Assembly: GCF_007971225.1 (NCBI RefSeq)
Contig: NZ_CP042435.1
Location: forward strand, 1-64,000
Length of the DNA stretch: 64,000 nucleotides
Reading direction: 5' to 3'
Source of the DNA: Panacibacter ginsenosidivorans
GTDB lineage: Bacteria; Bacteroidota; Bacteroidia; Chitinophagales; Chitinophagaceae
This document shows positions 489 to 43,567 of the stretch, one piece after another. How positions within the stretch are numbered: the stretch's first letter is position 1; every line of letters begins with the position of its first letter. Below the pieces are notes generated by a model. The model saw only the letters and a list, made by a program, of their open reading frames with translations. It searched no databases and was not told the origin of the DNA. The position numbers were made by a program, and so were the translations under genes.

Positions 489-553
489 CAAAGCTATCCT
501 CAATGAACGCCTGCGTTGCTGATGCGTCTCAACTATAAACATGATCATGGTCA
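489..553 (-). promoter_or_regulatory. FNR-type dyad plus -7 element, ccoI promoter
   Basis: Dyad TGATCATGGTCA at 542-553 (one mismatch to TGAT-N4-ATCA) and, on the minus strand, TAGCTTTG at 489-496, a perfect TAnnTTTG -7. Centre-to-centre distance is 55 bp, the class I position, and the start codon is about 20 nt downstream. The divergent hemN shows no match at the same spacing. Confidence 0.6.
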
Positions 554-619
554 TGTAACCCAGGAAAGAGGCTGACCAGAATCATATTGTTTGGCAGAAA
601 GCATTTCTATTTTCGTACG

Positions 620-1991
620 ATGAAAAATGATTTTGATGTACCTGCTGCATTGATAAGGAAATATAACAGCCTGTTCCCAGGTATACAAGCTATCCAACTG
701 TTCCTTCGTGGAAGGAAACAATAGACACAGGAGAGTGGAAAAATATTATTCAAACAAAATTTGCAGCAGCGAACGGTCAGGGTATCAGCCTTTACCTGCA
801 TCTTCTTTTGTGAAAGTCTTTGCACCTATTGCGGTTGTAACAAAAAAATTACAACTAATACAGCGTAGAAGAAAGATATATTGCTGCGTTAGAAAAGGAA
901 TGGGAACTTTACAGGGAGCTGATGCAACAGGCGCCGGTAATAAGAGAATTACATCTCGGAGGAGGCACACCCACATTTTTTTCTGCCACCAACCTGGAAA
1001 GAATACTTCAACTAGTTCTAAAAGATACCATCGTTCATCCCTTGCATGAGTTTAGCATAGAAGGCCACCCTAATAATACAACCATTGAACAATTAGAAAC
1101 TTTATATAAACTAGGTTTCAGGCGCATTAGCTATGGCGTGCAGGATAATGACCCAACTGTGCAAAAGATCATAAACCGCATTCAGCCGTTTGAACATGTA
1201 AAATCGGCAACTGAAAATGCAAGAGCAACTGGGTTTACTTCTGTGAATTTTGATCTTATCTATGGCTTGCCTTTTCAAACAAAAGATAGTATAAAGAAAA
1301 CAATAGAACAGGTAATAACATTAATGCCCGATCGTATTGCTTTTTACAGTTATGCACACGTGCCCTGGACAAGTAAAGCACAACGCCTCTTTGATGAAAC
1401 AGACCTTCCATCTGCTGAAGATAAAATAGGATTATACCTGACCGGCAAGCAACTATTACTTGAAAATGGTTATGCAGATATAGGTATGGATCATTTTGCT
1501 TTACCGCATGATGCATTGTATAAAGCACGTATAGACGGAAGTTTACACAGGAATTTTATGGGTTATACCACGCAACATACCAGCGTGCTGCTGGGCCTTG
1601 GTGTATCAGCTATAAGTGATGCAGGCACTGCGTTTGCCCAGAATGATAAAACATTAAGCGGCTACTACACTGCTCTTGAAGAGTATAATTGCCTATAAAA
1701 AAAGGTTACATACTTAATCAGGAAGACCTGCTTTTCAGGAAAAATATAAAAGATATAAGCTGTATCGGTAAAACAACTTTCGCAGAAGAGCAGTTGCCTT
1801 TGCTGAAAGAATACAGTTTTTCTCAGCTATCATTACTGGCGGAGGATGGACTTGTTCAGTTTGATTCAGATGGTTGCGTGTTAACTGAGAAGGGACATTA
1901 TTTTATAAGGAATATTTGCAGTGCGTTTGATTTGCATCTGCAGCGAAATAAAATTGAAAATGAAAAACTTTTATTTAGCAAAGCTATATGA
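620..1991 (+). CDS. hemN: Oxygen-independent coproporphyrinogen III dehydrogenase, frameshifted
   Basis: Radical SAM enzyme that decarboxylates coproporphyrinogen III without oxygen in haem synthesis. Read across frames it starts MKNDFDVPAA at 620. It then has a CxxxCxxC cluster motif (CESLCTYC, first Cys damaged by a slip at about 801-812), the conserved LHLGGGTPT segment (from about 949), SYGVQD (about 1128), NFDLIYGLP (1249-1275), and a HemN C-terminal domain ending at 1991. Reading needs at least four slips corrected, near 679, 801-812, 860 and 1691, all of them apparent missing bases. The total length of about 455 residues is normal for HemN. The coding content is well conserved between slips, so sequence error near a contig end is more likely than true decay, but a pseudogene cannot be excluded. 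Confidence 0.8.
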
Positions 1992-2012
1992 TCTGCAGGC
2001 TTTTTTCTTTGC

Positions 2013-2077
2013 TGATCACAATCATAACGGCAGGTGATGCAGGCTAATTATTTAGCCTTTACAACATTATAGCTTTG
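2013..2077 (+). promoter_or_regulatory. FNR-type dyad plus -7 element upstream of the 2148 gene
   Basis: Exact dyad TGATCACAATCA at 2013-2024 and exact -7 TAGCTTTG at 2070-2077. The centres are 55 bp apart (class I spacing), with the start codon about 65 nt downstream of the expected transcription start. Confidence 0.65.
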
Positions 2078-2147
2078 TAAAATCAGTAACCATACAGAGC
2101 GACTTAAAGCATAAAAATTACAAAGACAAGCGTAACTATTTTCAAAA

Positions 2148-2548
2148 ATGACAAACCAGGCCAGGGAAATATTAATCACAGAAGACACACTGGTATCAGA
2201 CATACAGGAAATTTTTAGCAGTTTTTATCCCTTTCTGAAAATAGAATTCTCAAAACTGCAAAGCAATAGTCAAAGCTTGCAAAAATCCAGGAAGGTTTTA
2301 CCTCAGGACAGTATAAAAATATAACCAATGCAATGATGCCAGTAAAACTTAGAATAGAAAACAAACGCACCATTGCACAGGTTGAAGATGATTGCATACA
2401 ACAGTTGGGTTTACTTGTGCAGATATCACGAAAATCCGGAAATGTGTGGAATACGATTTCGCTCACAGAAAACTGGACACTGGAAGAGCAGAACAATGCA
2501 GGAAAATTTATCAGTTCTGAAATGAAACTTCCGCCGGTGAAAGAATAA
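2148..2548 (+). CDS. Small conserved protein of unknown function, frameshifted
   Basis: About 133 residues when one slip (between about 2270 and 2322) is corrected. The first part reads MTNQAREILITEDTLVSDIQ and the second part ends in a segment with LLVQISRKSGNVWNTISLT and WTLEEQNNAGKFISS. I recall similar small Bacteroidota proteins but know no function for them. No signal peptide or membrane segment is seen. It stands alone between hemN and a repeat element, and its promoter carries an exact FNR-type dyad, so it is predicted to be induced with the low-oxygen genes of this window. Confidence 0.5.
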
Positions 2549-2810: not shown

Positions 2811-3865
2811 TTAATAAGGCAGGTTCCTCAATTTTTTTTCATCTGTAATGATTACTTTACCATGTTGAATATCTATCAGCTTTTCATCTTTAAAATCTCC
2901 AAGCGTTCTTATCAGTGATTCTGTAGCTATGCCAACTGATTGTGCCATGTGTTCGCGGGAAAGATTGAGTATTGGATTTTCTTCCTGCTCTGTGCGGTAT
3001 TTTCCAATAACTGTATAAGGCCGAACGCAACTTTTTTTCTTAATGAATTATAAGCAAGGTTTAGCAGGCTTTCTTCTTTCTCGGCTATATTCTGTGTAAT
3101 GATCTTTATAAATGTTTGTGCTATCTGCATATCGCCTGATATGAGTTGAAGAAAATCTTCACGTGGTATAAGCATTAACTGTGCATCTTCCAGTATTTGC
3201 GCTTCTTCTTTATAGCTTGTATTTTCCATTACAGGTGTGTAGCCAAAGAAATCTCCCGGCCCGTATATGCCCGTGATAAATTCTTTTCCATCATCATTGC
3301 ACCTTGCTGTTTTTACCTTGCCTGATATAATATGGTACACAGCACGGGGGCGCTGCCCTTCTTTATAAAGTGAGTATTTTTTACTGTAAGCGTTTACTTC
3401 GCGTTCATCTGATACAAGTTTAACCTTACCGGTTTTCTGAACATCTGCAAGAAAATCATTTACTGCTCCCGGGCCTTCATAACGGTTTTTTACCAATGAA
3501 GCCTTTTTTAGTCTTGCTTCTATTGCATTTAATAATTCAATGCCATCAAATGGCTTTGTTATATAATCATCGGCGCCCATTTCCATACCTTTTCGCAGAT
3601 CTGTTTTTTCTGATTTTGCTGTTAAGAAAATAAAAGGAATGGCAGATGTCTCTTTGTGCTTACTTAACAGGTGAAGCACGCCATAGCCATCCAGCACCGG
3701 CATCATAATATCGCATACGATGAGGTCTGGTAATTCTTTCAAAGCAATTTCTACGCCCTGTTTTCCATTCTCCGCAGTAAGGACTTTATAATTGGAAAGT
3801 GCCACGATCTCTGCGGTATTTTCCCTTACTTCCATGTTGTCTTCTATGATCAGAATTGTTTTCAT
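2811..3865 (-). CDS. Hybrid response regulator: REC domain plus cNMP-binding and Crp-type HTH, frameshifted near the C-terminus
   Basis: Receiver domain at residues 1-120 with the phospho-acceptor in CDIMMP (Asp52) and the KPF motif. A cyclic-nucleotide-binding jelly roll follows at about 155-270, then a Crp helix-turn-helix. The plain frame stops at 2927. Adding one A in the GAAAATACC run near 2997-3003 restores the HTH, including SVGIATESLIRTLGDF, and the natural stop at 2811. The restored protein matches the paralogue at 29274-30332 over its whole length. It follows the kinase gene with a 15-nt gap, so it is the likely partner regulator. The recognition helix TESLIR keeps the Glu and Arg that in CRP/FNR proteins contact TGA half-sites. 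Confidence 0.8.
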
Positions 3866-3880: not shown

Positions 3881-5155
3881 TTAATTTTGTGGAATATAAA
3901 TGGTGAATACTGAACCTTCTTCAAGTTTGCTTTTAATTTCAATTCTTCCATTCATCAGCTCAAGATATTTGGCTACTATATGCAATCCAAGCCCTGTGCC
4001 CTGTATGTTTGCTGCATTTTTTGCCCTGAAGAAACGTTCAAACAAATGCTCCTGGTCTTCCTGTGAAATACCAATGCCATTATCCCTGATGGCAATAATA
4101 AGATCCACATCTGATAGATCGCAGGAGATATTAATGCTTGAGTGTTCCTGTGTAAATTTAATTGCATTTGATACCAGGTTGATGAGAATATTTTTTAAAA
4201 GCTGCTTGTCAACCAATACATCGTTATAAATAGAATCGTTAAGCTGAATGTGCTGGCCGGTTTTTAGCATACCATCCATTTCCTGTATTACGTTCCGGAT
4301 TATTTCAATTACGGTTACAGCCTCTGTTTTTTCCATCTGCACTTTTACCCTGCCTTCTTCGAGTTTACCCAGCGAAAGAAAATCTTCCAGAATACTTTTC
4401 ATACCGCCTACTGCAGCTTTGATGCGAAGTATATGTTTGTTTATTTTTTCATCGGGTAGTTGTTCGGTATATTTTTCAAGCAGGTAAGCCGAGGAAAGAA
4501 TAGTACTTAAAGGAGTTCTGAACTCATGAGAAGCCATGGTTACAAATCTTGATTTCAATTCGCTCAACTCTTTTTCATTTTCATAAGCTTCGCTAAGTTC
4601 TTCTTTTGATTTTTCAAGCTCTACCAATGCTTCCCGCAGCATTTTTGTGCGATCGTCTATTTTTTGTTCCAGTTCGCTATTCATTTCCCTGATCTCTGTA
4701 GTTACTCTTTCCAGCTCTTTCTTTTGATCCAATACAAGACTTTCCTGCTTCTTGCGAACGGTTATATCAATTACAAAAGCAATTACAAAAGTTTCGTTCC
4801 CTATTTTGTAATGACTAAGACTTACTTCCACGGGGAAAGTACCGCCATTCTTATTGGTTGCATAAAGATCCCTGCCATGGCCCATTACTCTTGGCTCAGG
4901 ATGTTCATAATACTGGTGGCGATAATTTACATGCCGCGAATGTATTGCCTGTGGTAAGAGTACTTCAACTCTTTTCCCTACTATCTCTTCTTTCGTGTAG
5001 CCAAACTGGTTCTCTGCAAACTTATTAAAGTTAAGAATCTCACCGTTATGGTTCGTTACAACAATACCAATGGAAGCAAAATTAAAAAGTGCTTCCAGCT
5101 GCTGACTGCCGTCAACAGAAATTGAAACAATTTGCTTGTCGTTATTATCCTTCAT
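3881..5155 (-). CDS. PAS-domain sensor histidine kinase
   Basis: Soluble kinase of 424 residues with no membrane segment. A PAS domain (about 18-135) is followed by a PAC-like end, a coiled coil (about 137-205), the dimerisation/phospho-acceptor box ASHEFRTPLS (His210), and an ATPase domain with NLVSNAIKFT, DNGIGI and GTGLGLHIV. Within the PAS domain, His75 in SRHVNY and Arg95 in GHGRD fall where FixL has its haem-ligating His and distal Arg. The same pattern also occurs in PAS domains that I do not think bind haem, so this is only suggestive. It precedes the hybrid REC-Crp regulator and resembles the kinase at 30334-31548. Confidence 0.9.
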   Translation of the reverse strand: MKDNNDKQIVSISVDGSQQLEALFNFASIGIVVTNHNGEILNFNKFAENQFGYTKEEIVGKRVEVLLPQAIHSRHVNYRHQYYEHPEPRVMGHGRDLYATNKNGGTFPVEVSLSHYKIGNETFVIAFVIDITVRKKQESLVLDQKKELERVTTEIREMNSELEQKIDDRTKMLREALVELEKSKEELSEAYENEKELSELKSRFVTMASHEFRTPLSTILSSAYLLEKYTEQLPDEKINKHILRIKAAVGGMKSILEDFLSLGKLEEGRVKVQMEKTEAVTVIEIIRNVIQEMDGMLKTGQHIQLNDSIYNDVLVDKQLLKNILINLVSNAIKFTQEHSSINISCDLSDVDLIIAIRDNGIGISQEDQEHLFERFFRAKNAANIQGTGLGLHIVAKYLELMNGRIEIKSKLEEGSVFTIYIPQN

Positions 5156-6898: not shown

Positions 6899-6921
6899 TT
6901 ACCTTGTTTTAACCTCACCCT

Positions 6922-6948
6922 AAGTCCCTCTCCAAAGGAGAGGGACTT
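6922..6948. repeat. Perfect 12-bp inverted repeat in the nosF-nosY gap
   Basis: AAGTCCCTCTCC and its exact reverse complement are separated by AAA. No T-run follows on the minus strand, so it is less like a terminator and more like an mRNA-processing or stability hairpin, or a short extragenic palindrome of the type seen in many genomes. Confidence 0.6.
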
Positions 6949-13539: not shown

Positions 13540-13582
13540 CAAGATTAGAACAGGAAATAGCTTGAGGATATGATTGCAATCA
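13540..13582 (-). promoter_or_regulatory. FNR-type dyad plus -7 element for cytochrome c/nos
   Basis: Dyad TGATTGCAATCA at 13571-13582 sits in a perfect 16-bp palindrome (13569-13584). Minus-strand -7 TAATCTTG at 13540-13547 has one mismatch. The centres are 33 bp apart, the class II spacing. Confidence 0.7.
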
Positions 13583-13604: not shown

Positions 13605-13647
13605 TGATTCTTGTCATATTTTATGCTGATTTATTTTGAAAAATTTG
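13605..13647 (+). promoter_or_regulatory. FNR-type dyad plus -7 element for the Crp/Fnr gene
   Basis: Dyad TGATTCTTGTCA at 13605-13616 (one mismatch) and -7-like AAAATTTG at 13640-13647 (one mismatch), centres 33 bp apart. With the neighbouring dyad it gives each divergent gene its own site and suggests autoregulation. Confidence 0.55.
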
Positions 13648-13685: not shown

Positions 13686-14279
13686 ATGATACAACAAGAC
13701 CTGTTACTTGCATGGGGCGGAACTTTTAGAAAGTATGAAAAGAATCAGCCTATTTTCTTTGAAGGTGATAAGCCTTTATTTTATTACCAGGTAATGGAAG
13801 GAACCGTGCGTATGGCTAATATCAATGATGATGGCAAAGAGTTTATACAAGGAATATTTAAAAAGGGAGAAAGTTTTGGTGAGCCTGTTTTGTTTTTGGA
13901 TGAACCATATCCTGCAACTGCAATTGCAAACGAAGCATGTGTGGTGATGCGCATAACCAAAGAAAATTTTTTGTACATACTCAAAGAATATCCTGATATA
14001 CATTTAAGTATTACCAGAATACTTGCGGCACGCATTTATAATAAATCAATCCTTTCAAAAGAAATTGCAGGTGAAACGCCTGAGCACCGAATAAAAACCA
14101 TGTTGCATTTATTGAAGCAACAAAATAATTGCAGAAATAATGAGCCTTACAAAGTAGAATTATCAAGACAGCAAATTGCAGACATGACGGGGCTTCGCAC
14201 GGAAACAGTAATACGCATTATGCGTAAACTACATGAGCGTGGTGAATTGCATATAGAAAAAGGAAAAGTTTTTTTATGA
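13686..14279 (+). CDS. Crp/Fnr family transcription regulator
   Basis: A 197-residue regulator: cNMP-type jelly roll (about 15-120, with GEPVLFLDEPYPATAIA), a dimer helix, and a Crp winged HTH (QQIADMTGLRTETVIRIMRKL). The recognition helix has Glu and Arg in TETVIR, as in CRP/FNR proteins that read TGA half-sites. There is no N-terminal Cys cluster (only two Cys in all), so it is not a classic 4Fe-4S FNR; haem or another ligand, or none, are options. Divergent from cytochrome c-nosZ with two dyads between. It is the best candidate for direct control of nos and for the wider TGAT-N4-ATCA regulon. Confidence 0.92.
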   Translation: MIQQDLLLAWGGTFRKYEKNQPIFFEGDKPLFYYQVMEGTVRMANINDDGKEFIQGIFKKGESFGEPVLFLDEPYPATAIANEACVVMRITKENFLYILKEYPDIHLSITRILAARIYNKSILSKEIAGETPEHRIKTMLHLLKQQNNCRNNEPYKVELSRQQIADMTGLRTETVIRIMRKLHERGELHIEKGKVFL

Positions 14280-15586: not shown

Positions 15587-15650
15587 TGATCTCTATCACC
15601 CAAACTGTTCACTTCCGTCAGTTTTATGCATTTTTTATTTGATCAATTTG
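15587..15650 (+). promoter_or_regulatory. FNR-type dyad upstream of the AI-2E family gene
   Basis: Exact dyad TGATCTCTATCA at 15587-15598. A -7-like TCAATTTG at 15643-15650 is 54 bp away, one base off the usual spacing, and would leave a very short leader. The dyad is firm, the promoter weak. Confidence 0.4.
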
Positions 15651-16695: not shown

Positions 16696-16764
16696 TATTA
16701 TAAAACTATTATAGCTTTTCTATTTTTTGACTTTCTCAATTATGAGCACAGTCAATCTTTTGGC

Positions 16765-16807
16765 TGATGGTGATCATAAGTAAAGACTGTGATGCTGGGT
16801 AGATTTG
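16765..16807 (+). promoter_or_regulatory. FNR-type dyad plus -7 element upstream of the 16834 gene
   Basis: Exact dyad TGATGGTGATCA at 16765-16776 and exact -7 TAGATTTG at 16800-16807, centres 33 bp apart (class II). One of the clearest examples in the window. Confidence 0.72.
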
Positions 16808-19297: not shown

Positions 19298-19568
19298 AAA
19301 ATTATTTTAAGGCTAAAGCTATTAACCATATATCAGAAAATAAATGACAGCTATCATCTGCTGTGTTGATTGTAAAGTATATTTATAATACCTGCTTTTG
19401 ATACATTTGGCAGCGTTCCCTGCGTTGCAAATGAAATTCACGGATACCAGAACAAAATAAAAGAAGAATCCGTAATCCGTTTCATCTGTATTGATTTTGG
19501 CATCATATCGAATAAAGGATCAATACAGATAAGCCATATCAATTAAAGCTGTAAATGCATTTTTAAGT
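19298..19568. other. Divergent intergenic region
   Basis: Holds the SDR promoter (19314-19356) and, at about 19440-19510, a stretch with AATCCGTAATCCGTTTCAT that looks like a short non-coding repeat. No gene seen. Confidence 0.4.
19314..19356 (-). promoter_or_regulatory. FNR-type dyad plus -7 element upstream of the SDR gene
   Basis: Dyad TGACAGCTATCA at 19345-19356 (one mismatch) and minus-strand -7 TAGCTTTA at 19314-19321 (one mismatch), centres 33 bp apart. Confidence 0.55.
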
Positions 19569-23017: not shown

Positions 23018-25618
23018 ATGATGAACTGGCATCTTGAAGATATTGACAAAGTATTAGAAATAACCGGTAGCTCTAAAGAAGGATTATCAACTACAGAAGC
23101 CGGAAAAAGGCTGCTGGAATATGGACCTAATGAAATAACCCAGGTACATAGAAGATCTGCATGGCTTTTATTGCTGCAGCAGTTTAAAGACTTTATGATA
23201 CTTATACTGGTAGTTGCCGCAATTATCTCAGGTTTGCTTGGAGATGTTACAGATACGCTTGTTATTGTTGCGATTGTTATCCTCAATGCTGTCATTGGTT
23301 TTATACAGGAATATCGCGCAGAAAAAGCAATGGAGTCTTTAAGGAAAATGACAGCAACAAACGTTCAGGTATTCAGGGATAATACCATCCTTTCAATGCC
23401 TTCAGATATCCTTGTGCCCGGTGATATTATTTTACTGGAGGCGGGAAATATTCTTCCTGCAGACATACGTTTAATAGAAGCCGTACAGGTGAAAGTAAAT
23501 GAAGCTTCTCTTACAGGCGAGTCATTACCTGTAGAAAAACAAACTGATACACTAAACGCACAGGTGCTTCCGCTTGGAGATTATACAAATATGGCTTTTA
23601 AAGGAACTTTTGTAACCGGCGGACGCGGAAAGGGAGTAGTTATTGCTACCGGTATGAATACCGAATTAGGAAAAGTAGCCCGTTTACTTCAGCAGCCGGA
23701 AGTGCAGACACCTCTTCAAAAAAGACTGGCTTCCTTCGGAAGAAATCTTGCTTATATAATCCTTTTCATCTGTTTTGTTGTATTTGCTATCGGGTTTCTG
23801 AAAGGGGAGGATGTGATACTCATGTTAATGACTTCACTTTCACTTGCTGTGGCCGCCATACCTGAAGCCTTGCCGGCTGTGATAACGATTGCTCTTGCAA
23901 TAGGCGCCAAAAAAATGGTCAGAAAAAATGTGTTGATACGAAAGCTGCCAGCCGTAGAAACATTAGGGTCAGTCACCTATATCTGTACAGATAAAACGGG
24001 AACGCTAACCCTTAATAAAATGACAGTGGAAGAAATTGCAGGTAATGATTTTTCTATTTATGACAACTGCAACACATCTGAAAAATATTCAGGCAATGAA
24101 TATCGATTGCTTATGTTGGCAATGGCATTAAATAATGATGTGTACAGAGATAAGGACAATAACCTGATTGGCGACCCTACCGAAATTGCTTTATTTGAAT
24201 TTGCATCAGCAGCCGGGTATGATAAAACTAAAATGGAAAAACAATATCCACGTGTAGCAGAAATTCCTTTTGATTCTAAAAGAAAATGTATGACCACCAT
24301 TCACCGTTATGGTGATGAATTTATTGCCTTTACTAAAGGTGCCACAGAAGTTTTACTACAAAAAATAAAAGATCCTTCCTCTGTTGAAAAATGGCAGAAA
24401 CCATTGGATAATATGACGGGAAAAGGATTGCGTGTATTAGGTTTTGCAACAAGAAAATTTGATGTGTTACCTGCTTCTATTACCCCGGATACAATCGAAG
24501 AGCAGCTAAACCTGCAAGGTTTAACCGGACTTATCGATCCTCCAAGGGAAGAAGCCAGACAGGCTGTACAGGAATGTAAAACAGCAGGTATTAATCCTGT
24601 AATGATTACCGGAGATCATCCGGTTACTGCTGCAGTTATTGCCAGGCGACTTAATATTATTGAAACAGAAGATGATAGAATTATTACCGGGGCAGAATTA
24701 AGTAGTATGAGTGACCGTGATCTGCTGGAGATAGTAGATGATATTAAAGTTTATGCAAGGGTGTCACCGGAGCAAAAGCTAAATATTGTAAAAGCGCTTC
24801 AAAAAAAAGGAGCCTATGTGGCCATGACCGGCGATGGTGTAAATGACGCACCGGCTTTAAAACGTGCTGATATTGGTGTAGCGATGGGAATAACGGGAAC
24901 AGATGTTGCAAAAGAGGCTGCACATATGATATTGTTAGATGATAATTTCGCCAGCATAGTAAAAGCTGTTAAAGAGGGGCGAAAAATTTTCGATAACACA
25001 AGAAGATTTATACGTTACGTTCTTACGGGTAATACTGCTGAAATACTGACAATTTTCCTGGCTCCTTTTTTTTCTTTACCTATTCCGTTATTACCCATTC
25101 ATATTTTGTGGATTAACCTTGTTACAGATGGTCTGCCCGGGTTGGCTCTTACAGCAGAATCAGCAGAAGAAAATATTATGCATCGTCCGCCAAGAAATCC
25201 TAAGCAAAGCATTTTTGATGACGGCTTGGGAATTCATGTACTGTGGGTTGGTCTTTTGTTGGCATCATTAACCATAGGTACGCAAGCCTACGCTATACAT
25301 GTTAATGATTCGCATTGGCAGACAATGGTATTTACTGTTCTTTGCCTGGGCCAGTTAACATATGCAATGGCTATAAGATCTGAAACTTTATCTCTGTTCC
25401 GTCAGGGAATTTTTTCAAACAGGGCACTGATCTTTACAGTAGTTATTACATTTATCCTGCAATTGGCTATTATTTACTTTCCTTTCCTGAATATGATATT
25501 CAAAACTGAGCCCTTATCCATAAAGGATTTGGTTTTTTGTATTGCTGTTTCAATGGTTGTTTTTGTAGTTGTAGAAGCTAAGAAAGTCATACATGCATCC
25601 ATCAGAAGCAGGCAATGA
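23018..25618 (+). CDS. Cation-transporting P-type ATPase, P2A (Ca2+-type) family
   Basis: An 866-residue P2-type ATPase. N-terminal cation ATPase domain (GLSTTEAGKRLLEYGPNE), actuator motif EASLTGESLPVEK, fourth helix AAIPEALPAVITIALAIGAKK, phosphorylation site ICTDKTGTLT, hinge TGDGVNDAPALK, and a C-terminal domain of six helices. PEALP resembles secretory-pathway Ca2+/Mn2+ pumps and mycobacterial CtpF, a member of the DosR dormancy regulon. The ion is not proven. Its stop codon overlaps the FNR-type dyad of the hsp20 promoter downstream. Confidence 0.85.
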   Translation: MMNWHLEDIDKVLEITGSSKEGLSTTEAGKRLLEYGPNEITQVHRRSAWLLLLQQFKDFMILILVVAAIISGLLGDVTDTLVIVAIVILNAVIGFIQEYRAEKAMESLRKMTATNVQVFRDNTILSMPSDILVPGDIILLEAGNILPADIRLIEAVQVKVNEASLTGESLPVEKQTDTLNAQVLPLGDYTNMAFKGTFVTGGRGKGVVIATGMNTELGKVARLLQQPEVQTPLQKRLASFGRNLAYIILFICFVVFAIGFLKGEDVILMLMTSLSLAVAAIPEALPAVITIALAIGAKKMVRKNVLIRKLPAVETLGSVTYICTDKTGTLTLNKMTVEEIAGNDFSIYDNCNTSEKYSGNEYRLLMLAMALNNDVYRDKDNNLIGDPTEIALFEFASAAGYDKTKMEKQYPRVAEIPFDSKRKCMTTIHRYGDEFIAFTKGATEVLLQKIKDPSSVEKWQKPLDNMTGKGLRVLGFATRKFDVLPASITPDTIEEQLNLQGLTGLIDPPREEARQAVQECKTAGINPVMITGDHPVTAAVIARRLNIIETEDDRIITGAELSSMSDRDLLEIVDDIKVYARVSPEQKLNIVKALQKKGAYVAMTGDGVNDAPALKRADIGVAMGITGTDVAKEAAHMILLDDNFASIVKAVKEGRKIFDNTRRFIRYVLTGNTAEILTIFLAPFFSLPIPLLPIHILWINLVTDGLPGLALTAESAEENIMHRPPRNPKQSIFDDGLGIHVLWVGLLLASLTIGTQAYAIHVNDSHWQTMVFTVLCLGQLTYAMAIRSETLSLFRQGIFSNRALIFTVVITFILQLAIIYFPFLNMIFKTEPLSIKDLVFCIAVSMVVFVVVEAKKVIHASIRSRQ

Positions 25619-25680
25619 TACCAATCATGGTTTCCGGTAATCATCATCATTAAAACGGGCTGATCATTATGCTATCTTCA
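25616..25680 (+). promoter_or_regulatory. FNR-type dyad upstream of hsp20-phosphorylase operon
   Basis: Exact dyad TGATACCAATCA at 25616-25627, overlapping the stop codon of the ATPase gene, and a -7-like TATCTTCA at 25673-25680 (two mismatches), centres 55 bp apart. Confidence 0.5.
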
Positions 25681-28044: not shown

Positions 28045-28109
28045 TGATTAATCTCATTGCATCCGCTGACCATAGTCCTTGATTGTCTGTACACTGCGAA
28101 ATACATTTG
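28045..28109 (+). promoter_or_regulatory. FNR-type dyad plus promoter of the second hsp20
   Basis: Dyad TGATTAATCTCA at 28045-28056 (one mismatch), a -33-like CTTG at 28078-28081 and exact -7 TACATTTG at 28102-28109. Dyad to -7 centre distance is 55 bp. Confidence 0.62.
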
Positions 28110-28700: not shown

Positions 28701-28765
28701 TGATCACAATCATGATTAACGCTGATAAGTGTTTTGGTTTGGGGTTTTTAAAAAATATAGTTTTA
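28701..28765 (+). promoter_or_regulatory. FNR-type dyad plus -7 element upstream of the 28809 gene
   Basis: Exact dyad TGATCACAATCA at 28701-28712 (same 12-mer as at 2013) and -7-like TAGTTTTA at 28758-28765 (one mismatch), centres 55 bp apart. Confidence 0.6.
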
Positions 28766-29273: not shown

Positions 29274-30332
29274 TTAATTGAGCATCTGTTCCAGTTTTAA
29301 TGGGTCAGTAATAGTAATAATTCCATCTGTGATGTCTATGATCTTTTCATGCCGAAAGTCGCTAAGTGTACGGATAAAAGATTCGGTGGCGGTGCCTGCC
29401 ATGCTTGCCAGGCTTTCACGGTTCATATCGATGGTGAATTTTTCTGCTTTATTATGATGGTATTTTTTCTTGAGCATTAAAAGTGCATCAGCAACTTTTT
29501 TTCTCAGTGAATGATAAGCAAGACCCAGCAACTGATTTTCTTTTTCAGAAATATTGCCAGCCAGCAATTCCATAAATTTTTTTGAGACGGCTGTATTTTT
29601 ATTCAGTAGTTCGTCAAAATCTTCTTTAGGTATTACAGCCAGTTCCGTTTCATCAATTGCCTCTGCTGTGTCTTTATAAGTAGCGCCTTCAAGCAATGCT
29701 ATATAGCCTATAAATTCACCGGCACCAAATAAACCGGTTACCAGTTCTTTTCCATCTTCATTGCTCTTGTATGTTTTTATTTTGCCTTTTAAAATATAAT
29801 ACAACTTGTTAGGGTGGTTGCCCTCCGCATAGATAGTTTGTTTCTTTTTATATTTGTTGGTGTCTCTGTCTTTCGTAAAAGAGCTAAGTGTAGTATTGCC
29901 TGTGCTTGCCTGCATTAATTGTTCCAATCCCTGCAGACCAGGCGCTAGATGCTGCTTCAACTGATCAAGTTTTTTTAACCGGCTGTCTACAGCATTTAAT
30001 AACTCAGTTCCGCTGAAAGGTTTGGTAATATAATCATCAGCACCCAGTTCCATACCCTTGCGAAAATCACTTCGTTCTGTTTTAGCGGTTAAGAAAATAA
30101 AGGGCGTGTTTTTTATTGCTTCATTTTTATGGATTGCATGCAGCACGCCATAACCATCAAGACCGGGCATCATTATATCGCAGATAATAAGATCTGGCTT
30201 GTGCTCAATGGCTTTTTCTATGCCGGTTTTTCCATCTGCTGCTTCAATTACTTTATAATTTGACAACTGAAGTATTTCTGCAGTGTTGCTGCGTATATCT
30301 TCATTATCTTCTATTATTAAGATCTTTTTCAT
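29274..30332 (-). CDS. Hybrid response regulator: REC domain plus cNMP-binding and Crp-type HTH
   Basis: A 352-residue intact paralogue of the regulator at 2811-3865. REC domain at 1-120 (Asp52 in CDIMMP, KPF near 105), cNMP-type jelly roll at about 160-275 (GKIKTYKSNEDGKELVTGLFGAGEFIGY), and Crp HTH (LASMAGTATESFIRTLSDF) near 310-330. Phosphorylation of REC may control DNA binding by the Crp module. It starts one base after the stop of the PAS kinase gene at 30334, so the pair is co-translated. The recognition helix TESFIR matches those of the other two Crp-type proteins here. Confidence 0.9.
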   Translation of the reverse strand: MKKILIIEDNEDIRSNTAEILQLSNYKVIEAADGKTGIEKAIEHKPDLIICDIMMPGLDGYGVLHAIHKNEAIKNTPFIFLTAKTERSDFRKGMELGADDYITKPFSGTELLNAVDSRLKKLDQLKQHLAPGLQGLEQLMQASTGNTTLSSFTKDRDTNKYKKKQTIYAEGNHPNKLYYILKGKIKTYKSNEDGKELVTGLFGAGEFIGYIALLEGATYKDTAEAIDETELAVIPKEDFDELLNKNTAVSKKFMELLAGNISEKENQLLGLAYHSLRKKVADALLMLKKKYHHNKAEKFTIDMNRESLASMAGTATESFIRTLSDFRHEKIIDITDGIITITDPLKLEQMLN

Positions 30333-30333: not shown

Positions 30334-31548
30334 TTAGCTTTTTTGCGTATAAAAAATTATGATAAATTCAGTCCCTTTTTCCAGTTCGCTTTTACATTGT
30401 AAAGTGCCGTTCATCAGCTCGGCATACCTGGAAACAATATGCAGGCCAAGCCCTGTGCCTTGTATATTTACTGCATTGGTGCCGCGGAAGAATCGTTTCG
30501 TTAGATGACGCTGGTCTTCTTTTGAAATGCCTATACCATTATCCTTTACGGAAAGAGTTACTTTGTTATTAATACAACTGGTTTTTATTTCTATTATTCC
30601 TGTCTCAGAAGAAAATTTACTTGCATTTGAAACCAGGTTCATGATGATATGTTTCAGGAAAGATGCATCAAGCTGTGCAAAAAGATCGCCTTCGTGCCGA
30701 TACGTTATTTGCTGCTGCTTTTTCAGGTTATCTTTTATTTCTTCTTTTATAGTTGCGGTTAATTCTTTGATGTTGAACCGGGTAATCTTTACCTCTGCCT
30801 TACCCTCTTCAATTTTACCTACACTAAGAAAATCATTCAGTATATCTATCAGTATGTTTACAGAAGAAACAATTCGCTGCAGGTGTATCTCCCGTTTTGG
30901 CTGACTTTCTGTAGTTGTATATTTATCTATAAGATAGGCTGAAGATAATATAGTGCTAAGCGGTGTGCGGAATTCATGCGATGCTGTAGTAACAAATCTC
31001 GATTTTAATTCATTAAGCTCCTTTTCTTTTTTTAATGACCGGGAAAGTTCTTCTTTTGAAATTTCTAACTGGCGCATCGCATGCGTAAGTTCCAGTGTAC
31101 GTTGCTCTACGGTAGATTCCAGCTCATCGTGTAACTTTATTATTTCTGCTTCCGCTTGTTTTCGTTCGGAAATATTATTAATGAAAGCCATTACAAATTT
31201 TTCATTGTTTTTGTTAAAATAGCTGAGGGTTATTTCTACCGGCAATTCTGTACCGTCTTTTTTAATGGCAAACAGGTCTTTGCCAGAATGCATCGGCCGG
31301 CTTTTTGGGTCTTTAAAATATTCTACATGATATACCGCATGGTCTTTCCGGAAACGCTCCGGGATAAGCAGATCAATTGGTCTGCCGGTTAATTCATCAT
31401 CGGCATAGCCAAATTCCTGTAATGCAAATGGGTTAATGGCTGTAATAGTTCCTGAAAAATCCACAATTATAATACCCATAGTAGCATAATTGAAAATCGC
31501 TTCAAAATAATTCGAGCTCTCTTTTTTATTTTTAACGGAATGTGGCAT
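30334..31548 (-). CDS. PAS-domain sensor histidine kinase
   Basis: A 404-residue soluble kinase, paralogue of that at 3881-5155. PAS domain at about 14-130, coiled coil at about 130-185, His191 in ASHEFRTPLS, ATPase domain with NLVSNASKFS, DNGIGI and GTGLGLHIV. In the PAS domain, His70 in KDHAVYH is kept but the FixL-type distal Arg position is Lys (HSGKD), unlike the other kinase. So the two may read different signals. First gene of a two-gene operon with the REC-Crp regulator; its upstream gap is filled by a repeat pair. Confidence 0.9.
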   Translation of the reverse strand: MPHSVKNKKESSNYFEAIFNYATMGIIIVDFSGTITAINPFALQEFGYADDELTGRPIDLLIPERFRKDHAVYHVEYFKDPKSRPMHSGKDLFAIKKDGTELPVEITLSYFNKNNEKFVMAFINNISERKQAEAEIIKLHDELESTVEQRTLELTHAMRQLEISKEELSRSLKKEKELNELKSRFVTTASHEFRTPLSTILSSAYLIDKYTTTESQPKREIHLQRIVSSVNILIDILNDFLSVGKIEEGKAEVKITRFNIKELTATIKEEIKDNLKKQQQITYRHEGDLFAQLDASFLKHIIMNLVSNASKFSSETGIIEIKTSCINNKVTLSVKDNGIGISKEDQRHLTKRFFRGTNAVNIQGTGLGLHIVSRYAELMNGTLQCKSELEKGTEFIIIFYTQKS

Positions 31549-39461: not shown

Positions 39462-39526
39462 CGAAACTACTGGTAACTAATCCGGTAAATGCTGATACTG
39501 ATCAATGCTTTCTTTGATTATCATCA
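39462..39526 (-). promoter_or_regulatory. Double FNR-type dyad plus -7 element upstream of baeRF-usp
   Basis: Two exact dyads, TGATACTGATCA at 39493-39504 and TGATTATCATCA at 39515-39526, lie 22 bp apart centre to centre. Minus-strand -7 TAGTTTCG (39462-39469, one mismatch) is 33 and 55 bp from them, so both class II and class I positions are filled. Confidence 0.75.
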
Positions 39527-39842: not shown

Positions 39843-40664
39843 TTATTTATGTGCTATAAAAACGGGTAACCAATGCTCTGCAATAAGATCGTTTACAAAG
39901 CTCTTTTTAAAAAGCTGCGACAGGCCATGCCGCCCATATGAGCCGCTTACCACGATTGCAGATCTTTTTTCTGAGGCCCATGTACTAAAATGTTTTTTTG
40001 GTATATCCAGCTTAGACATGGTAAGATTATTGAAATGTCTTGCTGCAAGCTCTTCTATTTGTATTTTATCGGGGAAATCTTCCTCCGCCTCATTACTTAT
40101 ATATACCAGTAAAGTTTCTTTTTTAGTCAGTTCGGGGAACAGGTATGCAAATTGTTTAATTGCAAAAACAGATTCTTCACTTCCGTCATAAGCGAGTATA
40201 ATGTTTTCAGGAAAATCAAATTTTTCAGGCACCAGGATCACGGGGCATTTTACATCCTCCAATGCATCTTCTAAATAATCATTGGGAGAACCGGCATGGA
40301 TATTTTCATAAAATATTTCACTGCCTAATATTAGCAGGTCTGCATAGCGGCTTTCTTTTTTTAATTCGGGCAATGCCAGGTCAAAAAAATCTTTGTGCAC
40401 ACGGTACTCAATGCCACTATGTTTGCAACGTTCTTCAAAGTGTTCAATATTTTCTTTTATGAGTTCGGATTCACCTGGTTCTACCAATGGTATCATTAAG
40501 GGGCTTCCTACACCATCTGCGTAACTCCATAAGTTGGCAAGCTCTGCCTGCGGTAAAAAAACGCCGGTTAGTAAGATGGGGCTAAGTTCATTTAGCCTGC
40601 GGGCAAATTCAAAAGCGCCTTCTGATGCATTGCTTCCATCGAAAGCAAGTAATATCTTTTTCAT
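39843..40664 (-). CDS. Universal stress protein, two UspA domains
   Basis: A 273-residue tandem UspA protein: MKKILLAFDGSNASEGAFEFA starts the first domain, and the second has NIILAYDGSEESVFAIKQFA near residue 155. The second domain ends with VSGSYGRHGLSQLFKKS, where the G-2x-G-9x motif is present but the last Gly is Lys. ATP binding is therefore uncertain. Single gene with terminator and an upstream exact FNR-type dyad. It is distinct in sequence from the one at 37517. Confidence 0.9.
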   Translation of the reverse strand: MKKILLAFDGSNASEGAFEFARRLNELSPILLTGVFLPQAELANLWSYADGVGSPLMIPLVEPGESELIKENIEHFEERCKHSGIEYRVHKDFFDLALPELKKESRYADLLILGSEIFYENIHAGSPNDYLEDALEDVKCPVILVPEKFDFPENIILAYDGSEESVFAIKQFAYLFPELTKKETLLVYISNEAEEDFPDKIQIEELAARHFNNLTMSKLDIPKKHFSTWASEKRSAIVVSGSYGRHGLSQLFKKSFVNDLIAEHWLPVFIAHK

Positions 40665-40701: not shown

Positions 40702-40766
40702 TGAAATTATGCAGGTACAGGAAATTGAAGAATGATGTGTATTGGCAGTTTAGTTGATCTTGATCA
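40702..40766 (-). promoter_or_regulatory. FNR-type dyad upstream of the 39843 stress protein gene
   Basis: Exact dyad TGATCTTGATCA at 40755-40766. Minus-strand -7-like TAATTTCA at 40702-40709 (two mismatches) is 55 bp away. Confidence 0.5.
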
Positions 40767-41635: not shown

Positions 41636-42268
41636 TTATCCTGCCTTTTTCAATTCTCTTAATTTATCGAGGTAGAACATTACTTCTTCATCAGTTACCT
41701 GTTCAAAATTTTCATAAAATGCACCTACGCCATAAAATTCATCAGGTATAAGTACCGCAACTACTTCGTCTACTTCTTTTGATAATTTTTGCACTGCACT
41801 TTTTGGTGCTACCGGTACACCAATTACAATTTTACCGGGTTTGCCTTTACGCAATACCTGCACTGTACTTAGCAGAGTATTACCTGTTGCAATACCATCA
41901 TCTATCACTATTACTGTTTTACCCTGCAGGCTTTCAGGCTCCCTGTCATCCATAAATCTCGCTTGCATTTCTTTAAGCCTGCTACGAATGCGCCGCAATT
42001 CGTTTTGAATATATTCATCCGAAACGTTTTCATGGGGAATAACAAAATAATCTGTAAGGCTTGCTGCACCGATAGCATATTCTTTATTAAAGGGGTGACC
42101 TATTTTCTTTGTAAGAATGACTTCAATGGGAAACCCTAGTTCATTAGCAACTGCATAAGCAACAGGCACACCACCTCTTGGAACAGCCAGTACAATACCT
42201 GGATCATTCCTATATTTTTTTAGTTTTGCTGCAAGTAATAAACCTGCCTCTATTCTGTCGCGGAACAT
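41636..42268 (-). CDS. Phosphoribosyltransferase
   Basis: A 210-residue type I PRTase fold: N-terminal RDRIEAGLLLAAKL, then VPRGGVPVAYAVANELG and the PRPP loop VIVIDDGIATGNTLL (about 120-134). In mycobacterial DosR-regulated proteins this domain is fused to a dienelactone hydrolase (Rv0571c) or an erythromycin esterase (Rv2030c) domain. Here it is separate, but 43 bp downstream of a hydrolase gene in the same operon. The base substrate is unknown. Confidence 0.9.
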   Translation of the reverse strand: MFRDRIEAGLLLAAKLKKYRNDPGIVLAVPRGGVPVAYAVANELGFPIEVILTKKIGHPFNKEYAIGAASLTDYFVIPHENVSDEYIQNELRRIRSRLKEMQARFMDDREPESLQGKTVIVIDDGIATGNTLLSTVQVLRKGKPGKIVIGVPVAPKSAVQKLSKEVDEVVAVLIPDEFYGVGAFYENFEQVTDEEVMFYLDKLRELKKAG

Positions 42269-42311
42269 ATAAATTTATTTTATCGTGAATTGCCGTTTAT
42301 GCGACTATATA

Positions 42312-42968
42312 TTATGTTTCTTGTGTTGCAGAATGCAAATACTTTTCAAACCATTTAGCAGCCAGTCCGGAAACAATATCCATTTTACCTGGTTCTTCAA
42401 ACAAATGAGTGGCGCCATCCACCACTTCTAATTTCTTTTCACATGTTAATTGCAAATAGGCATGCTTGTTTAATTGCAACACATCAATGTCTAAACTGCC
42501 AACAATCAATAGTGTAGGCGACTGAACTTTTTTTAAATCGTTCATCGCTAAATCAGGCCTGCCTCCCCTGGAAACTACGGCTTGTATTTGTGGCAACATA
42601 GTTGCAGCCCTTAAAGCAGACGCGGCGCCTGTACTGGCGCCAAAATAACCGATGCGACATTCTTTTGCGGATGGGAATCTTTCCAGCCACTCAGTCGCAC
42701 CGGCTAATCTTTTTGTAAGCAGGTCAATATTAAAACGATTATTATAAACCCTGTCTTCTTCTTTGGTAAGCAGATCTAACAGTAACGTCCCAAAGTTTTT
42801 TTGCTGCAGAAATTTTGCGACAATTTGATTACGCACGCTAAACCTGCTGCTGCCGCTGCCGTGTGAAAAAATTACAACAGCACCTGCATTATGTGGAATG
42901 ATCAATTCACCCTCTACTGTTGTTTTATCAACGGGAATGTGTACCTCGCCGTTATATTGCAGATCCAT
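42312..42968 (-). CDS. Dienelactone hydrolase-like alpha/beta hydrolase
   Basis: A 218-residue alpha/beta hydrolase: oxyanion segment VIFSHGSGSSR (about residues 31-41), nucleophile elbow GYFGASTGAAS (Ser near 109), likely Asp in VGSLDIDV and His in DGATHLFEEPG. The start at 42968 avoids overlap with the upstream gene. Lies between the YciE-like and phosphoribosyltransferase genes on one strand, so the three are a likely operon. It matches the C-terminal type of domain found fused to PRTases in dormancy genes of mycobacteria. Substrate unknown. Confidence 0.87.
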   Translation of the reverse strand: MDLQYNGEVHIPVDKTTVEGELIIPHNAGAVVIFSHGSGSSRFSVRNQIVAKFLQQKNFGTLLLDLLTKEEDRVYNNRFNIDLLTKRLAGATEWLERFPSAKECRIGYFGASTGAASALRAATMLPQIQAVVSRGGRPDLAMNDLKKVQSPTLLIVGSLDIDVLQLNKHAYLQLTCEKKLEVVDGATHLFEEPGKMDIVSGLAAKWFEKYLHSATQET

Positions 42969-42978
42969 CTTTTTTTGT

Positions 42979-43503
42979 TTACCGTGGTAATACAATAGTT
43001 GTTCTTGCTTCCATATTTACATCATGCTCTGCCAATTGCGATAAGCGGTCGTCAATTTGTTTTTCGTTTATTTCAGCTTCGTGAAAAATGGCTGCTTGTT
43101 TTTCCATGCCAACTGCATTGGCGTACGCAGTAGCAGTGCCATACATACTGATCTTAAAATGATTGATTGCCTGTATACATGCAAGCAGGCACGCATCTCT
43201 AACTTTTGTATCTGCACAATGAGAAAGCTTCTCCTGTGTTTCTTCTATATATGCATGCATGATACGGTTTGTGAGACTTATTGAACTGATCTTCTCCTCT
43301 TCAAAAAAGCCTTCTATGTTTTGAACATGCGTTCCTATAAAATCAAGATAGCGCTGCAATGTGTTTTTGAGTTTTATAGAACCTGCTTTATTTATCCATT
43401 CAGGCAGGATTTGTTGTAATTGTGCTTCGGCACTGGTAAACTTACCTGCATCATAATTCAGCAGGTTATGCAAAGTGGTGATGGTTTGGTTATGTGCTGC
43501 CAT
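42979..43503 (-). CDS. YciE/DUF892-like ferritin-fold protein
   Basis: A 174-residue four-helix-bundle protein: TITTLHNLLNYDAGKFTSAEAQLQQILPEWI, with Glu in helix 1, then a Glu-rich second helix IGTHVQNIEGFFEE, and helix 3/4 with CIQAINHFKISMYGTATAYA and FHEAEINEKQIDDRLSQLAEH. This is the layout of DUF892/YciF-type stress proteins with a possible di-iron site. First gene of a three-gene operon. Its promoter has a one-mismatch FNR-type dyad at class II distance with an exact -7. Confidence 0.82.
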   Translation of the reverse strand: MAAHNQTITTLHNLLNYDAGKFTSAEAQLQQILPEWINKAGSIKLKNTLQRYLDFIGTHVQNIEGFFEEEKISSISLTNRIMHAYIEETQEKLSHCADTKVRDACLLACIQAINHFKISMYGTATAYANAVGMEKQAAIFHEAEINEKQIDDRLSQLAEHDVNMEARTTIVLPR

Positions 43504-43524
43504 AGTATTTCAATTTTATTGTTA

Positions 43525-43567
43525 CAAATCTAACTGTCCAAATATTCTGGATGAATGACCACCATCA
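43525..43567 (-). promoter_or_regulatory. FNR-type dyad plus -7 element upstream of the YciE-like operon
   Basis: Dyad TGACCACCATCA at 43556-43567 (one mismatch) and exact minus-strand -7 TAGATTTG at 43525-43532, centres 33 bp apart. Confidence 0.65.

Follow-up and report, generated by a model that had tools for sequence, protein, structure and literature searches.

A tandem CRP/FNR-type operator element at promoters of a predicted low-oxygen regulon in Panacibacter ginsenosidivorans and its relatives, with a response regulator fusion as candidate reader

The first 64,000 nucleotides of the Panacibacter ginsenosidivorans contig NZ_CP042435.1 (the window) contain a series of short dyads, of which a preliminary description had listed 14, nine exact (TGAT-N4-ATCA) and five with one mismatch, as sites of an FNR-type regulator serving two promoter classes. 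This raises the question of how the dyads are organised and which protein is likely to read them. All 14 have been recovered at their reported coordinates, and a tenth exact dyad is found at 60960, within the coding sequence of a kinase. Ten exact dyads were reached in none of 100 shuffles of the window, which gave 2.14 ± 1.56 copies. With up to one mismatch the excess is weak, 61 dyads being present against 46 ± 6.8 expected, a number reached in 2 of 100 shuffles. The dyads had been described as lying nearly all upstream of genes, and indeed the centres of all 14 fall outside the assigned coding sequences, under an assignment which places the cytochrome c start at 13509 rather than 13617 and leaves 19% of the window non-coding. 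The full anaerobox TTGATN4ATCAA was considered as the code and rejected, with 25 sites in the genome against 4 for the reversed control and a single copy in the window, located inside a coding sequence (60959).

Promoters in Bacteroidota carry -33 and -7 elements, the latter with the sequence TAnnTTTG, and this mark of the primary sigma promoter is present at the sites. Measured from the dyad centre to the first T of the -7 element, the distances are 29 and 51, which correspond to the 33 and 55 bp previously given from centre to centre. The fixed distances stand, while the count of 13 in 14 has been lowered to 11 when at most one mismatch is allowed in the -7; the chance of a -7 at either offset is about 4% (0.039 over all positions, 0.045 in non-coding sequence), giving a binomial tail of about 1e-13 to 5e-13. 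Offsets 51 (7 matches) and 29 (6) are the most frequent in the window, with at most 2 matches at any other; the dyads at 25616 and 40755 have a -7 at offset 51 only with 2 mismatches, and at 15587, already singled out as the exception, the -7 is 1 bp short. The peak is also observed across the genome, where 9 of 18 non-redundant TGATN4ATCA-N20..50-TANNTTTG matches have a gap of 23 or 45 (two of the 31 possible gaps, for which 1.2 matches are expected), and in 80 loci of relatives that carry a gene for the response regulator fusion RR-CRP described below, where 97 of 126 TGAYN4RTCA matches with TANNTTTG are at offsets 29 and 51, compared with 0-1 for four control words or spacers. With N3 or N5 as the spacer, 0-1 dyads are in register; the N4 core TGAT/ATCA is that of FNR/FixK-type operators.

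Most dyads have a partner at a distance of 22 bp, either another dyad or a half-site and usually a degenerate one, a point that the preliminary description had passed over. The layout of the element is TGATnnnnATCA-N10-TGAYnnnnRTCA-N23-TAnnTTTG, with the dyad centres separated by 22 bp, or two helical turns, and most of the information content in the two dyads and the -7. In the 80 related loci, 58 of 63 far-dyad promoters have one or both halves of the near dyad in exact register, with 0-7 in shifted registers. Dyad pairs, counted with no -7 required, number 34 at 22 bp, while no other spacing between 13 and 60 has more than 4. With tandem defined as each dyad having at most 2 of 8 mismatches, 70 of the 85 distinct promoters in the loci are tandem and 15 are not (8 near-only, 7 far-only). 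The proposal that dyads near -41 and -63 mark class II and class I promoters thus survives as to the fixed positions and mostly fails as to the classes, since the two distances are mostly the two halves of one element. Two separate classes, class II for the 33-bp distance and class I for the 55-bp one, would account for the 15 non-tandem promoters and for single near-site promoters such as those of the cytochrome c and crp genes at 13547 and 13640, but this reading is largely refuted by the near half-site register and the 22-bp peak, and is very improbable. Chance, or a repeated mobile sequence, is refuted and can be given next to no weight: the excess of one-mismatch dyads by themselves is mild, which would suit chance, but offsets and spacing are sharp over 80 loci and many organisms, controls are near zero, and spacer and flank sequences vary from promoter to promoter. 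The outer T/A of the anaerobox (TTGAT...ATCAA) is not conserved, the left flank of the far dyad showing a weak c (0.4 bit) and the right flanks tending to T, not A.

Tandem promoters on the forward strand of the window are located at 2013..2077 (TGATCACAATCA and half site TGATGCAGGCTA, -7 TAGCTTTG, no clear same-strand gene downstream), 16743..16807 (TGAGCACAGTCA, TGATGGTGATCA, -7 TAGATTTG; PNPOx-family gene 16834-17283), 28045..28109 (TGATTAATCTCA, TGACCATAGTCC, -7 TACATTTG; HSP20 gene 28157-28600) and 28701..28765 (TGATCACAATCA and a TGAT half site, -7 TAGTTTTA), the last preceding a 136-aa ORF (28809-29219) with no Pfam match. On the reverse strand, the promoter at 489..553 (dyads 542-553 and 520-531, -7 TAGCTTTG at 489-496) runs leftward out of the window, its ORF being in L159, while two exact dyads at 39462..39526 (TGATGATAATCA, TGATCAGTATCA, -7 TAGTTTCG) precede a baeRF gene (38347-39441) and a Usp gene (37517-38335), and 43525..43589 (TGAGCAAGGTCA, TGATGGTGGTCA, -7 TAGATTTG) precedes DUF892, DLH and PRTase genes (41636-43503). 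The latter two dyads can be read in the other direction at 43556..43620 (+), with a weak -7 TTGTTTTG and a short ORF or the PEBP gene at 43999 downstream. A dyad is also common to the divergent promoters 19314..19356 (-), a near-dyad promoter with -7 TAGCTTTA before the SDR gene 18539-19297, and 19345..19409 (+), where the far dyad TGACAGCTATCA and a near TGAT half site are followed by -7 TACATTTG and, as the next forward ORF, 19569-20156.

Three further pairs have an imperfect -7. At 15587..15620 (+), TGATCTCTATCA and, 22 bp farther along, a second site TCACTTCCGTCA precede the short-spaced TCAATTTG and the AI-2E transporter-family gene at 15661; at 25616..25649 (+), TGATACCAATCA and TAATCATCATCA, 22 bp apart, precede a weak -7 at the right offset (TATCTTCA) and an HSP20 gene (25701-26144); and at 40733..40766 (-), TGATCTTGATCA and a half site 22 bp away, with an equally well placed weak -7 (TAATTTCA), lie upstream of a Usp-like gene (39843-40664). 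Single near-dyad promoters occur at 573..615 (+) (TGACCAGAATCA, -7 TATTTTCG with 1 mismatch), 13540..13582 (-) (TGATTGCAATCA, -7 TAATCTTG), before a cytochrome c lipoprotein gene adjoining nosZ, and 13605..13647 (+) (TGATTCTTGTCA, -7 AAAATTTG), before a plain CRP/FNR gene (13686-14279). The radical SAM gene following 573..615 appears HemN-like from its N-terminus; it is a 458-aa frame in the contig-end copy and split frames in the window copy (Pfam Radical_SAM).

The claim of a low-oxygen gene set is supported, with sites found upstream of ccoNO, HSP20, Usp and PAS-kinase genes. In the related loci, an upstream site is carried by 25 of 27 cbb3 oxidase ccoNO genes, 8/8 HSP20 (HSP20b) genes, 5/11 Usp genes and 17/73 PAS-kinase genes (15/30 HK_B-like and 2/43 most like HK_A), compared with 36 of 481 other ORFs. 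Among first downstream genes, 60 of 84 were scanned, among them 18 COX1+FixO, 6 HSP20, 5 PAS kinases and 3 Usp. In P. ginsenosidivorans itself a ccoNO-like ORF (L184, identified by its N-terminus only) has an upstream site, and the site-bearing genes also include a nitroreductase-like ORF. At the stringency used, relatives in the loci showed no upstream site for Ca-ATPase (0/7), HemN (0/1) or PRTase (0/1). The kinds of gene that follow the sites (cbb3 oxidase, HSP20, Usp and PAS kinase) give good support to the prediction that these promoters form a low-oxygen regulon. Autoregulation of the response regulator described below (RR-CRP) is not claimed, because a site directly upstream of its gene is rare (3/80); a route by way of the kinase gene is possible for lineages with a kinase most like HK_B (15/30).

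The likeliest regulator appears to be a response regulator whose output domain is of the CRP/FNR type, rather than an Fe-S FNR. Two such proteins are encoded in the window: RR-CRP_A (29274..30332, -; 352 aa), the candidate regulator, with receiver, cNMP-binding and Crp-type HTH domains, and RR-CRP_B (2927..3865, -), a response regulator with a cNMP-binding domain, whose C-terminus lies in a different reading frame in the window copy and is open in the contig-end copy (5519160-5520203). An N-terminal cysteine cluster for [4Fe-4S] is absent from both and from the stand-alone CRP/FNR-family regulator at 13686..14279 (+), and the proposed FNR-type Fe-S sensor is consequently not supported by the CRP/FNR proteins of the window. 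The CRP half of RR-CRP finds its best PDB match in 2gau (E 7e-32), and its recognition helix is near-invariant among 12 aligned proteins. The CRP part also matches six other places in the genome, two with Cys-rich N-termini (L032 at 786489 and L035 at 4072560), which have not been tied to sites.

In 69 of 80 loci, RR-CRP has a related kinase as its same-strand neighbour. In the window these kinases are HK_A (30334..31548, -) and HK_B (3881..5155, -), whose PAS domains, compared with the PDB at E<=0.001, match FixL or DosP in 13 of 14 cases (FixL E 3e-12) and 13 of 16 cases, respectively; FixL is the closest match for HK_B (E 2e-17), while HK_A scores best with a kinase chain other than FixL, 10jx (E 9e-13). 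Heme binding in FixL involves a ligand His and a distal Arg. His70 of HK_A is aligned with the former, and we take it to be its putative counterpart; this putative heme His is kept in 62 of 64 non-gap rows of the kinase alignment. The distal Arg column contains Met in 30, Leu in 16 and Arg in 10 of 69 non-gap rows, with Lys in HK_A.

Of 248 genomes of the order surveyed, 179 have RR-CRP; promoters were counted in these genomes with fixed-gap patterns, the per-genome counts being complete. Far-dyad matches are dense near RR-CRP, with 64 in 1.36 Mb of loci compared with about 2.9 per whole RR-CRP-positive genome of the family. Since RR-CRP presence or absence alone is confounded by stand-alone CRP relatives (E<=1e-35), genomes were grouped by these as well. 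In the family, genomes which carry RR-CRP but lack a stand-alone relative have a mean of 2.6 far-dyad promoters (at least one in 32 of 40), compared with 0.12 (1 of 8) in genomes with neither, a contrast of p 7e-4 which ignores shared ancestry and in which 3 of the 8 (G230, G242, G244) have a weaker CRP-only match. The gap-34 control is also higher in RR-CRP-positive genomes (0.72 vs 0.19, p 0.018; 0.57 vs 0.12, p 0.13, with stand-alone relatives separated), indicating that part of the contrast is due to genome size and composition. Far-dyad promoters occur in 9 of 12 genomes with a stand-alone relative and no RR-CRP (20 promoters in all), and the receiver is thus not needed everywhere. Frames of 357-380 aa in RR-CRP-negative genomes match the receiver part strongly; in G148, G230 and G194 they were read as running into a histidine-kinase-like part instead of a CRP domain, so that these three hold no hidden RR-CRP.

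What the sequences show is the tandem element with its strict phasing, its concentration near RR-CRP and its place before the cbb3 oxidase, HSP20 and some kinase genes. Taking these together, we favour, with reasonable though far from full confidence, a low-oxygen regulon with tandem CRP/FNR-type operators in which the RR-CRP fusion would be the main activator and a FixL-like kinase its partner; the tandem layout is probably read by this fused two-component regulator. On loss of oxygen, the heme-PAS kinase would phosphorylate the receiver of RR-CRP, and two dimers would then bind adjacently on one face of the DNA. The near dimer, at about -41, may serve as a class II activator, while the far dimer, at about -63, may assist through cooperativity or polymerase contact, both positions being derived from the distance to the -7 element. 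FixJ and FixK would thereby be joined in one protein, which would make this, as judged from sequence, a FixL-FixJ/FixK-like circuit working through strictly tandem promoters. More tentatively, and with somewhat less than even confidence, the circuit may be widespread in Bacteroidota, with CRP-type dimers binding head to tail after phosphorylation, both being needed for a sharp switch, and with stand-alone CRP relatives having taken over the code where the receiver was lost.

Two other readings bear on the protein and on the signal. The tandem sites may be read mainly by stand-alone CRP/FNR proteins, either relatives of the one encoded at 2193446 or Cys-rich FNR-like proteins, RR-CRP being only a neighbour or a regulon member. 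The 2193446 gene does adjoin a tandem promoter (2193253-2193317), its relatives in G182 and G083 adjoin far-dyad promoters among the matches listed, RR-CRP-negative genomes with such relatives keep sites, and two CRP/FNR proteins of the genome have Cys-rich N-termini; but the concentration of sites near RR-CRP genes and their presence in most RR-CRP genomes devoid of a stand-alone relative argue against this reading, which we regard as rather unlikely. Unlikely, too, is that the same circuit answers a redox, nitric oxide or energy-state cue through a non-heme or NO-binding PAS domain. Such a signal would suit the distal-pocket residues, which differ from FixL in most aligned kinases, and the sites at the nitroreductase-like ORF and the cytochrome c gene adjoining nosZ, but ccoNO is the most frequent target found, the HemN-like gene has a single site in this genome, and both the FixL/DosP matches and the conserved putative heme His point to oxygen.

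The favoured arrangement, with RR-CRP as activator, can be placed among known systems. In class II and class III promoters of Escherichia coli FNR and CRP, an operator near -41 acts jointly with a second upstream operator. The present promoters would share this arrangement, as judged by the distance to the -7; RR-CRP, unlike E. coli FNR, has no Fe-S cysteines, and while the spacing of CRP tandem sites varies, here the second site is at one spacing in many organisms. The stand-alone Crp/Fnr-family protein of PDB 2gau matches the CRP half, its 232-residue chain having no receiver, and we know of no tandem promoter code for it. The mycobacterial DosS/DosT-DosR dormancy regulon also combines a heme kinase (here predicted) with a response regulator, and the window resembles it in gene content (HSP20, Usp, cation ATPase, PRTase and erythromycin-esterase-like genes); DosR has a NarL-type output and another binding site, whereas the output domain of RR-CRP is of the CRP type. 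With the alphaproteobacterial FixL-FixJ-FixK(2) circuit are shared a FixL-like PAS kinase, a CRP/FNR-family output and the cbb3 oxidase (fixNO) as main target, the control of the latter being predicted here from upstream sites. The differences lie in the receiver and CRP output within one protein, with no separate NarL-type FixJ, and in tandem operators with strict 22-bp phasing, a Bacteroidota -7 and the unconserved outer T/A.

The published FixK/FnrN consensus, TTGANCNNGATCAANG, has the same TGA/TCA core as the dyads (PMC4999443), and a small heat shock protein of Rhizobium leguminosarum has been placed under an FnrN-dependent anaerobox promoter (PMC11784457). CRP/FNR homologues of Flavobacteriales and Saprospiraceae have been given a MalR-like carbon role in a study whose main text contains neither "tandem" nor "receiver" (PMC8510549). 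A search of the open-licence literature did not turn up a master circuit governing the low-oxygen response of environmental Bacteroidota. A strict promoter code with a candidate regulator, the code being searchable as a pattern in many genera, would allow regulon prediction across the group, which could extend to uncultured members and to carriers of nitrous oxide reductase. They also provide a clean case for asking how the unusual polymerase of Bacteroidota could be activated by a CRP-output response regulator and a pair of phased dimers. Upstream of the -7, TTG occurs among the 81 promoters compared 8 times at spacer 20, 12 times at spacers 14-19 and never at spacers 21-25, while in 1082 other TANNTTTG elements its rate is about 2-3% per spacer; being commoner at spacer 20 than elsewhere (8/81 against about 3%), it suggests that some of these promoters may include their own -33 box.

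The window, which has 38% GC and a -7 element of the Bacteroidota type, comprises bases 1-64000 of a single 5.53-Mb contig. All 14 CRP/FNR-type dyads recorded in the preliminary description have been found in place, and its estimate of about two exact copies agrees with the 2.1 expected, as against 10 occurrences of TGATN4ATCA seen in the window, a number reached in 0 of 100 shuffles. The tenth exact copy, at 60960, falls inside a carbohydrate-kinase coding sequence and has no -7 element in register. Since dyads with one mismatch are only slightly in excess (61 in the window, 46 expected), the case rests on position. A -7 element 33 or 55 bp from the dyad centre, corresponding to offsets of 29 or 51 from the centre to the first T of TAnnTTTG and to gaps of 23 or 45 in pattern searches, had been claimed for 13 of the 14 dyads; the register is upheld at a lower count, 11 of 14 with at most one mismatch, on a background of about 4%. 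Each of the three dyads that sat awkwardly in that description has a partner 22 bp off, at 15609, 25638 and 40733 (a half-site).

The genome-wide distance peak that had been proposed as a check is present in the own genome (GCF_007971225.1): 18 non-redundant pairs of an exact dyad and a -7 element fall within gaps of 20-50, and in 9 of them the gap is 23 or 45. Two further matches, left out of this count, are copies in an overlap of the contig ends. When one mismatch to TGAYN4RTCA is allowed, 56 matches occur at gap 23 and 45 at gap 45, overlap duplicates included, and the reversed pattern gives 15 and 6. The overlap consists of the contig start (1 to ~11690) repeated at the end (from ~5516337), for example 1979-2077 as 5518315-5518413, and resembles a circular assembly with an untrimmed overlap, its extent being judged from the offset. 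Small indel differences separate the two copies, and the frames of a HemN-like gene and of RR-CRP_B (2927-3865, minus strand), a response regulator with a CRP output domain, are open only in the contig-end copy. The register has likewise been observed around RR-CRP genes elsewhere, in the best 80 of at least 592 matching stretches on named contigs (1.36 Mb in all); among the matches listed, many of the named contigs on which the best-matching RR-CRP relatives lie belong to Chitinophagaceae. In these best 80 of at least 592 loci, TGAYN4RTCA combined with TANNTTTG gave 126 matches, 33 at offset 29 (near dyad) and 64 at offset 51 (far dyad), and four control words or spacers gave 0-1 at these offsets.

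The preliminary description treated the two distances as separate, a view that has to be replaced, as they mostly represent one element. A near half-site is found in register in 58 of 63 far-dyad promoters (TGA in 43, TCA in 49, both in 34), compared with 0-7 at shifts of 1-4 bp, and a far half-site accompanies 26 of 33 near-dyad promoters, with 0-3 at shifts. Even when no -7 element is required, pairs of TGAYN4RTCA number 34 at 22 bp, 4 at 21, 3 at 23 and 0-2 at the remaining spacings of 13-60. The consensus can be written approximately as TGATaAAAATCAT-N-TGAtnnnngTCATT-N-TAnTTTTG. In the window, a second site is visible for the -7 elements at 496, 2070 (half), 16800, 19402 (half), 28102, 28758 (half), 39469, 43532 and 43613, and single near sites precede those at 13547 (cytochrome c by nosZ), 13640 (the plain CRP gene, 13686-14279, plus strand), 608 and 19321.

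Of the 84 first downstream ORFs in the RR-CRP loci, 60 were family-scanned, yielding 18 ccoNO-type fusions (COX1 plus FixO), 6 HSP20, 5 PAS histidine kinases, 3 Usp, 2 metal ATPases and 2 baeRF. Counted by gene across the 80 loci, a predicted site with at most one mismatch lies upstream of ccoNO in 25/27, HSP20b in 8/8, Usp in 5/11, baeRF in 2/3, DUF892 in 2/2, PNPOx in 1/2, kinases like HK_B in 15/30, kinases like HK_A in 2/43 and RR-CRP itself in 3/80, and at the same threshold none was found for Ca-ATPase (0/7), HemN (0/1) or PRTase (0/1). Other ORFs of at least 250 aa, which serve as a control although some are themselves regulon members, have a site in 36/481 cases. Pfam families of site-bearing ORFs in the window are HSP20, PNPOx, baeRF, DUF892 and SDR. 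Identified by inspection of N-terminal sequence, site-bearing ORFs of the own genome include L184, a ccoNO-like gene lying immediately to the left of the window, and ORFs whose products resemble HemN, Usp, nitroreductase, CBS-domain proteins and flavodoxin; several have one near site only, and some may be chance. Most ccoNO-sized ORFs in the RR-CRP loci begin ~200-295 bases past the -7 element (e.g., L105:15639-17771), a few having been assigned earlier starts, and this long leader may have a regulatory role as a 5' untranslated region.

The two RR-CRP genes, RR-CRP_A (29274-30332, minus strand) and RR-CRP_B, adjoin the PAS-domain histidine kinases HK_A (30334-31548, minus strand) and HK_B (3881-5155, minus strand). 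FixL or DosP supplies 13 of the 14 chains matched in the PDB by the PAS domain of HK_A, whose best match is another kinase (10jx), and 13 of the 16 matched by that of HK_B. In an alignment of 72 kinases, His occupies the column of the FixL heme-ligand His in 62 of the 64 rows that have no gap there; at the distal Arg position most kinases have Met or Leu, HK_B having Arg and HK_A Lys. These features suggest that the kinases likely bind heme and sense oxygen.

Which protein reads the element has been addressed by comparing genomes. An E-x3-R recognition helix is common to RR-CRP_A, RR-CRP_B, the plain CRP and a stand-alone CRP encoded at 2193446, and sequence alone therefore gives no choice of regulator. 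Of 248 genomes from the order, 179 carry relatives of RR-CRP_A (E<=1e-60, with scoring limited to 8 candidates in each genome). In 81 genomes of the family (G246 left out), with a stand-alone relative defined as a frame shorter than 300 aa that aligns to the 2193446 protein at E<=1e-35, far-dyad promoters per genome average 3.7 in the 21 genomes that have both types, 2.6 in the 40 that have only RR-CRP, 1.7 in the 12 that have only the stand-alone type and 0.12 in the 8 that have neither; of these 8, 3 have weaker CRP-only matches. RR-CRP alone differs from neither for far dyads (p = 7e-4) and near dyads (p = 0.005), the gap-34 control giving p = 0.13, and these values are optimistic because the genomes share kinship. 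RR-CRP by itself thus accompanies the promoter code, and stand-alone relatives can too. A cruder split of the family by RR-CRP separates the gap-34 control as well (p 0.018); genome size or composition accounts for part of the RR-CRP contrast. Sites are far more densely packed around RR-CRP genes, with 64 far-dyad matches per 1.36 Mb (best 80 of at least 592 loci), than over whole genomes, with ~2.9 per RR-CRP-positive family genome.

A mechanism joining the operators, phasing, -7 distance, gene content and linkage observed here would begin with loss of oxygen, which would switch on the kinase and lead to phosphorylation of the RR-CRP receiver. Two dimers would then sit side by side on the tandem operators, the near one, at about -41, acting as a class II activator and the far one, at about -63, helping it. 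The right half of the near operator lies close to the expected position of a -33 box. Among 81 promoters, 12 have TTG at spacers 14-19 and 8 have it at spacer 20, the latter frequency exceeding the 3% seen elsewhere, so that some of these promoters may have a -33 box of their own. The component parts of this circuit are of known kinds, and no description of the promoter element or of a Bacteroidota FixL/RR-CRP oxygen circuit was found in the open full-text literature, a scope in which subscription papers and preprints mostly do not fall.

Several further observations concern CRP-like proteins. In three genomes (own 2193253-2194036, G182:C21:282596-283391 and G083:C66:534380-535163), a stand-alone CRP gene and a far-dyad promoter are arranged divergently, the own promoter preceding an ORF that reads as GcvH-like. 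The arrangement hints that the stand-alone CRP might use the same code. Two other CRP/FNR proteins of the own genome, L032 (near 786489) and L035 (near 4072560), have Cys-rich N-termini (C-x4-C-x2-C-x2-C) and may be Fe-S sensors; L035 adjoins an ORF that by its sequence resembles uroporphyrinogen methyltransferase. The RR-CRP-negative genomes G148, G230 and G194 carry frames of 357-370 aa (L234, L235, L236) with a receiver like that of RR-CRP and a second half resembling a histidine kinase.

Within the window, PRTase, DLH, DUF892, PEBP and erythromycin-esterase-like genes (41636-45837), taken jointly with the HSP20, Usp and cation-ATPase genes, form a set that resembles the mycobacterial DosR regulon in gene content. 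At 6131-13617, nosZ-like and ABC transporter genes adjoin the cytochrome c and plain CRP genes with their single-dyad promoters, and perhaps represent a separate N-oxide branch. A 413-aa ORF (14342-15583) between the CRP gene and an AI-2E-family gene apparently encodes a membrane protein, for which a Pfam match at E 0.001 was not found. The strong tandem promoter at 2013-2077 (plus strand) is directed at convergent RR-CRP_B across ~850 bp in which the plus strand shows no clear gene; this stretch might encode a small RNA or a short protein.
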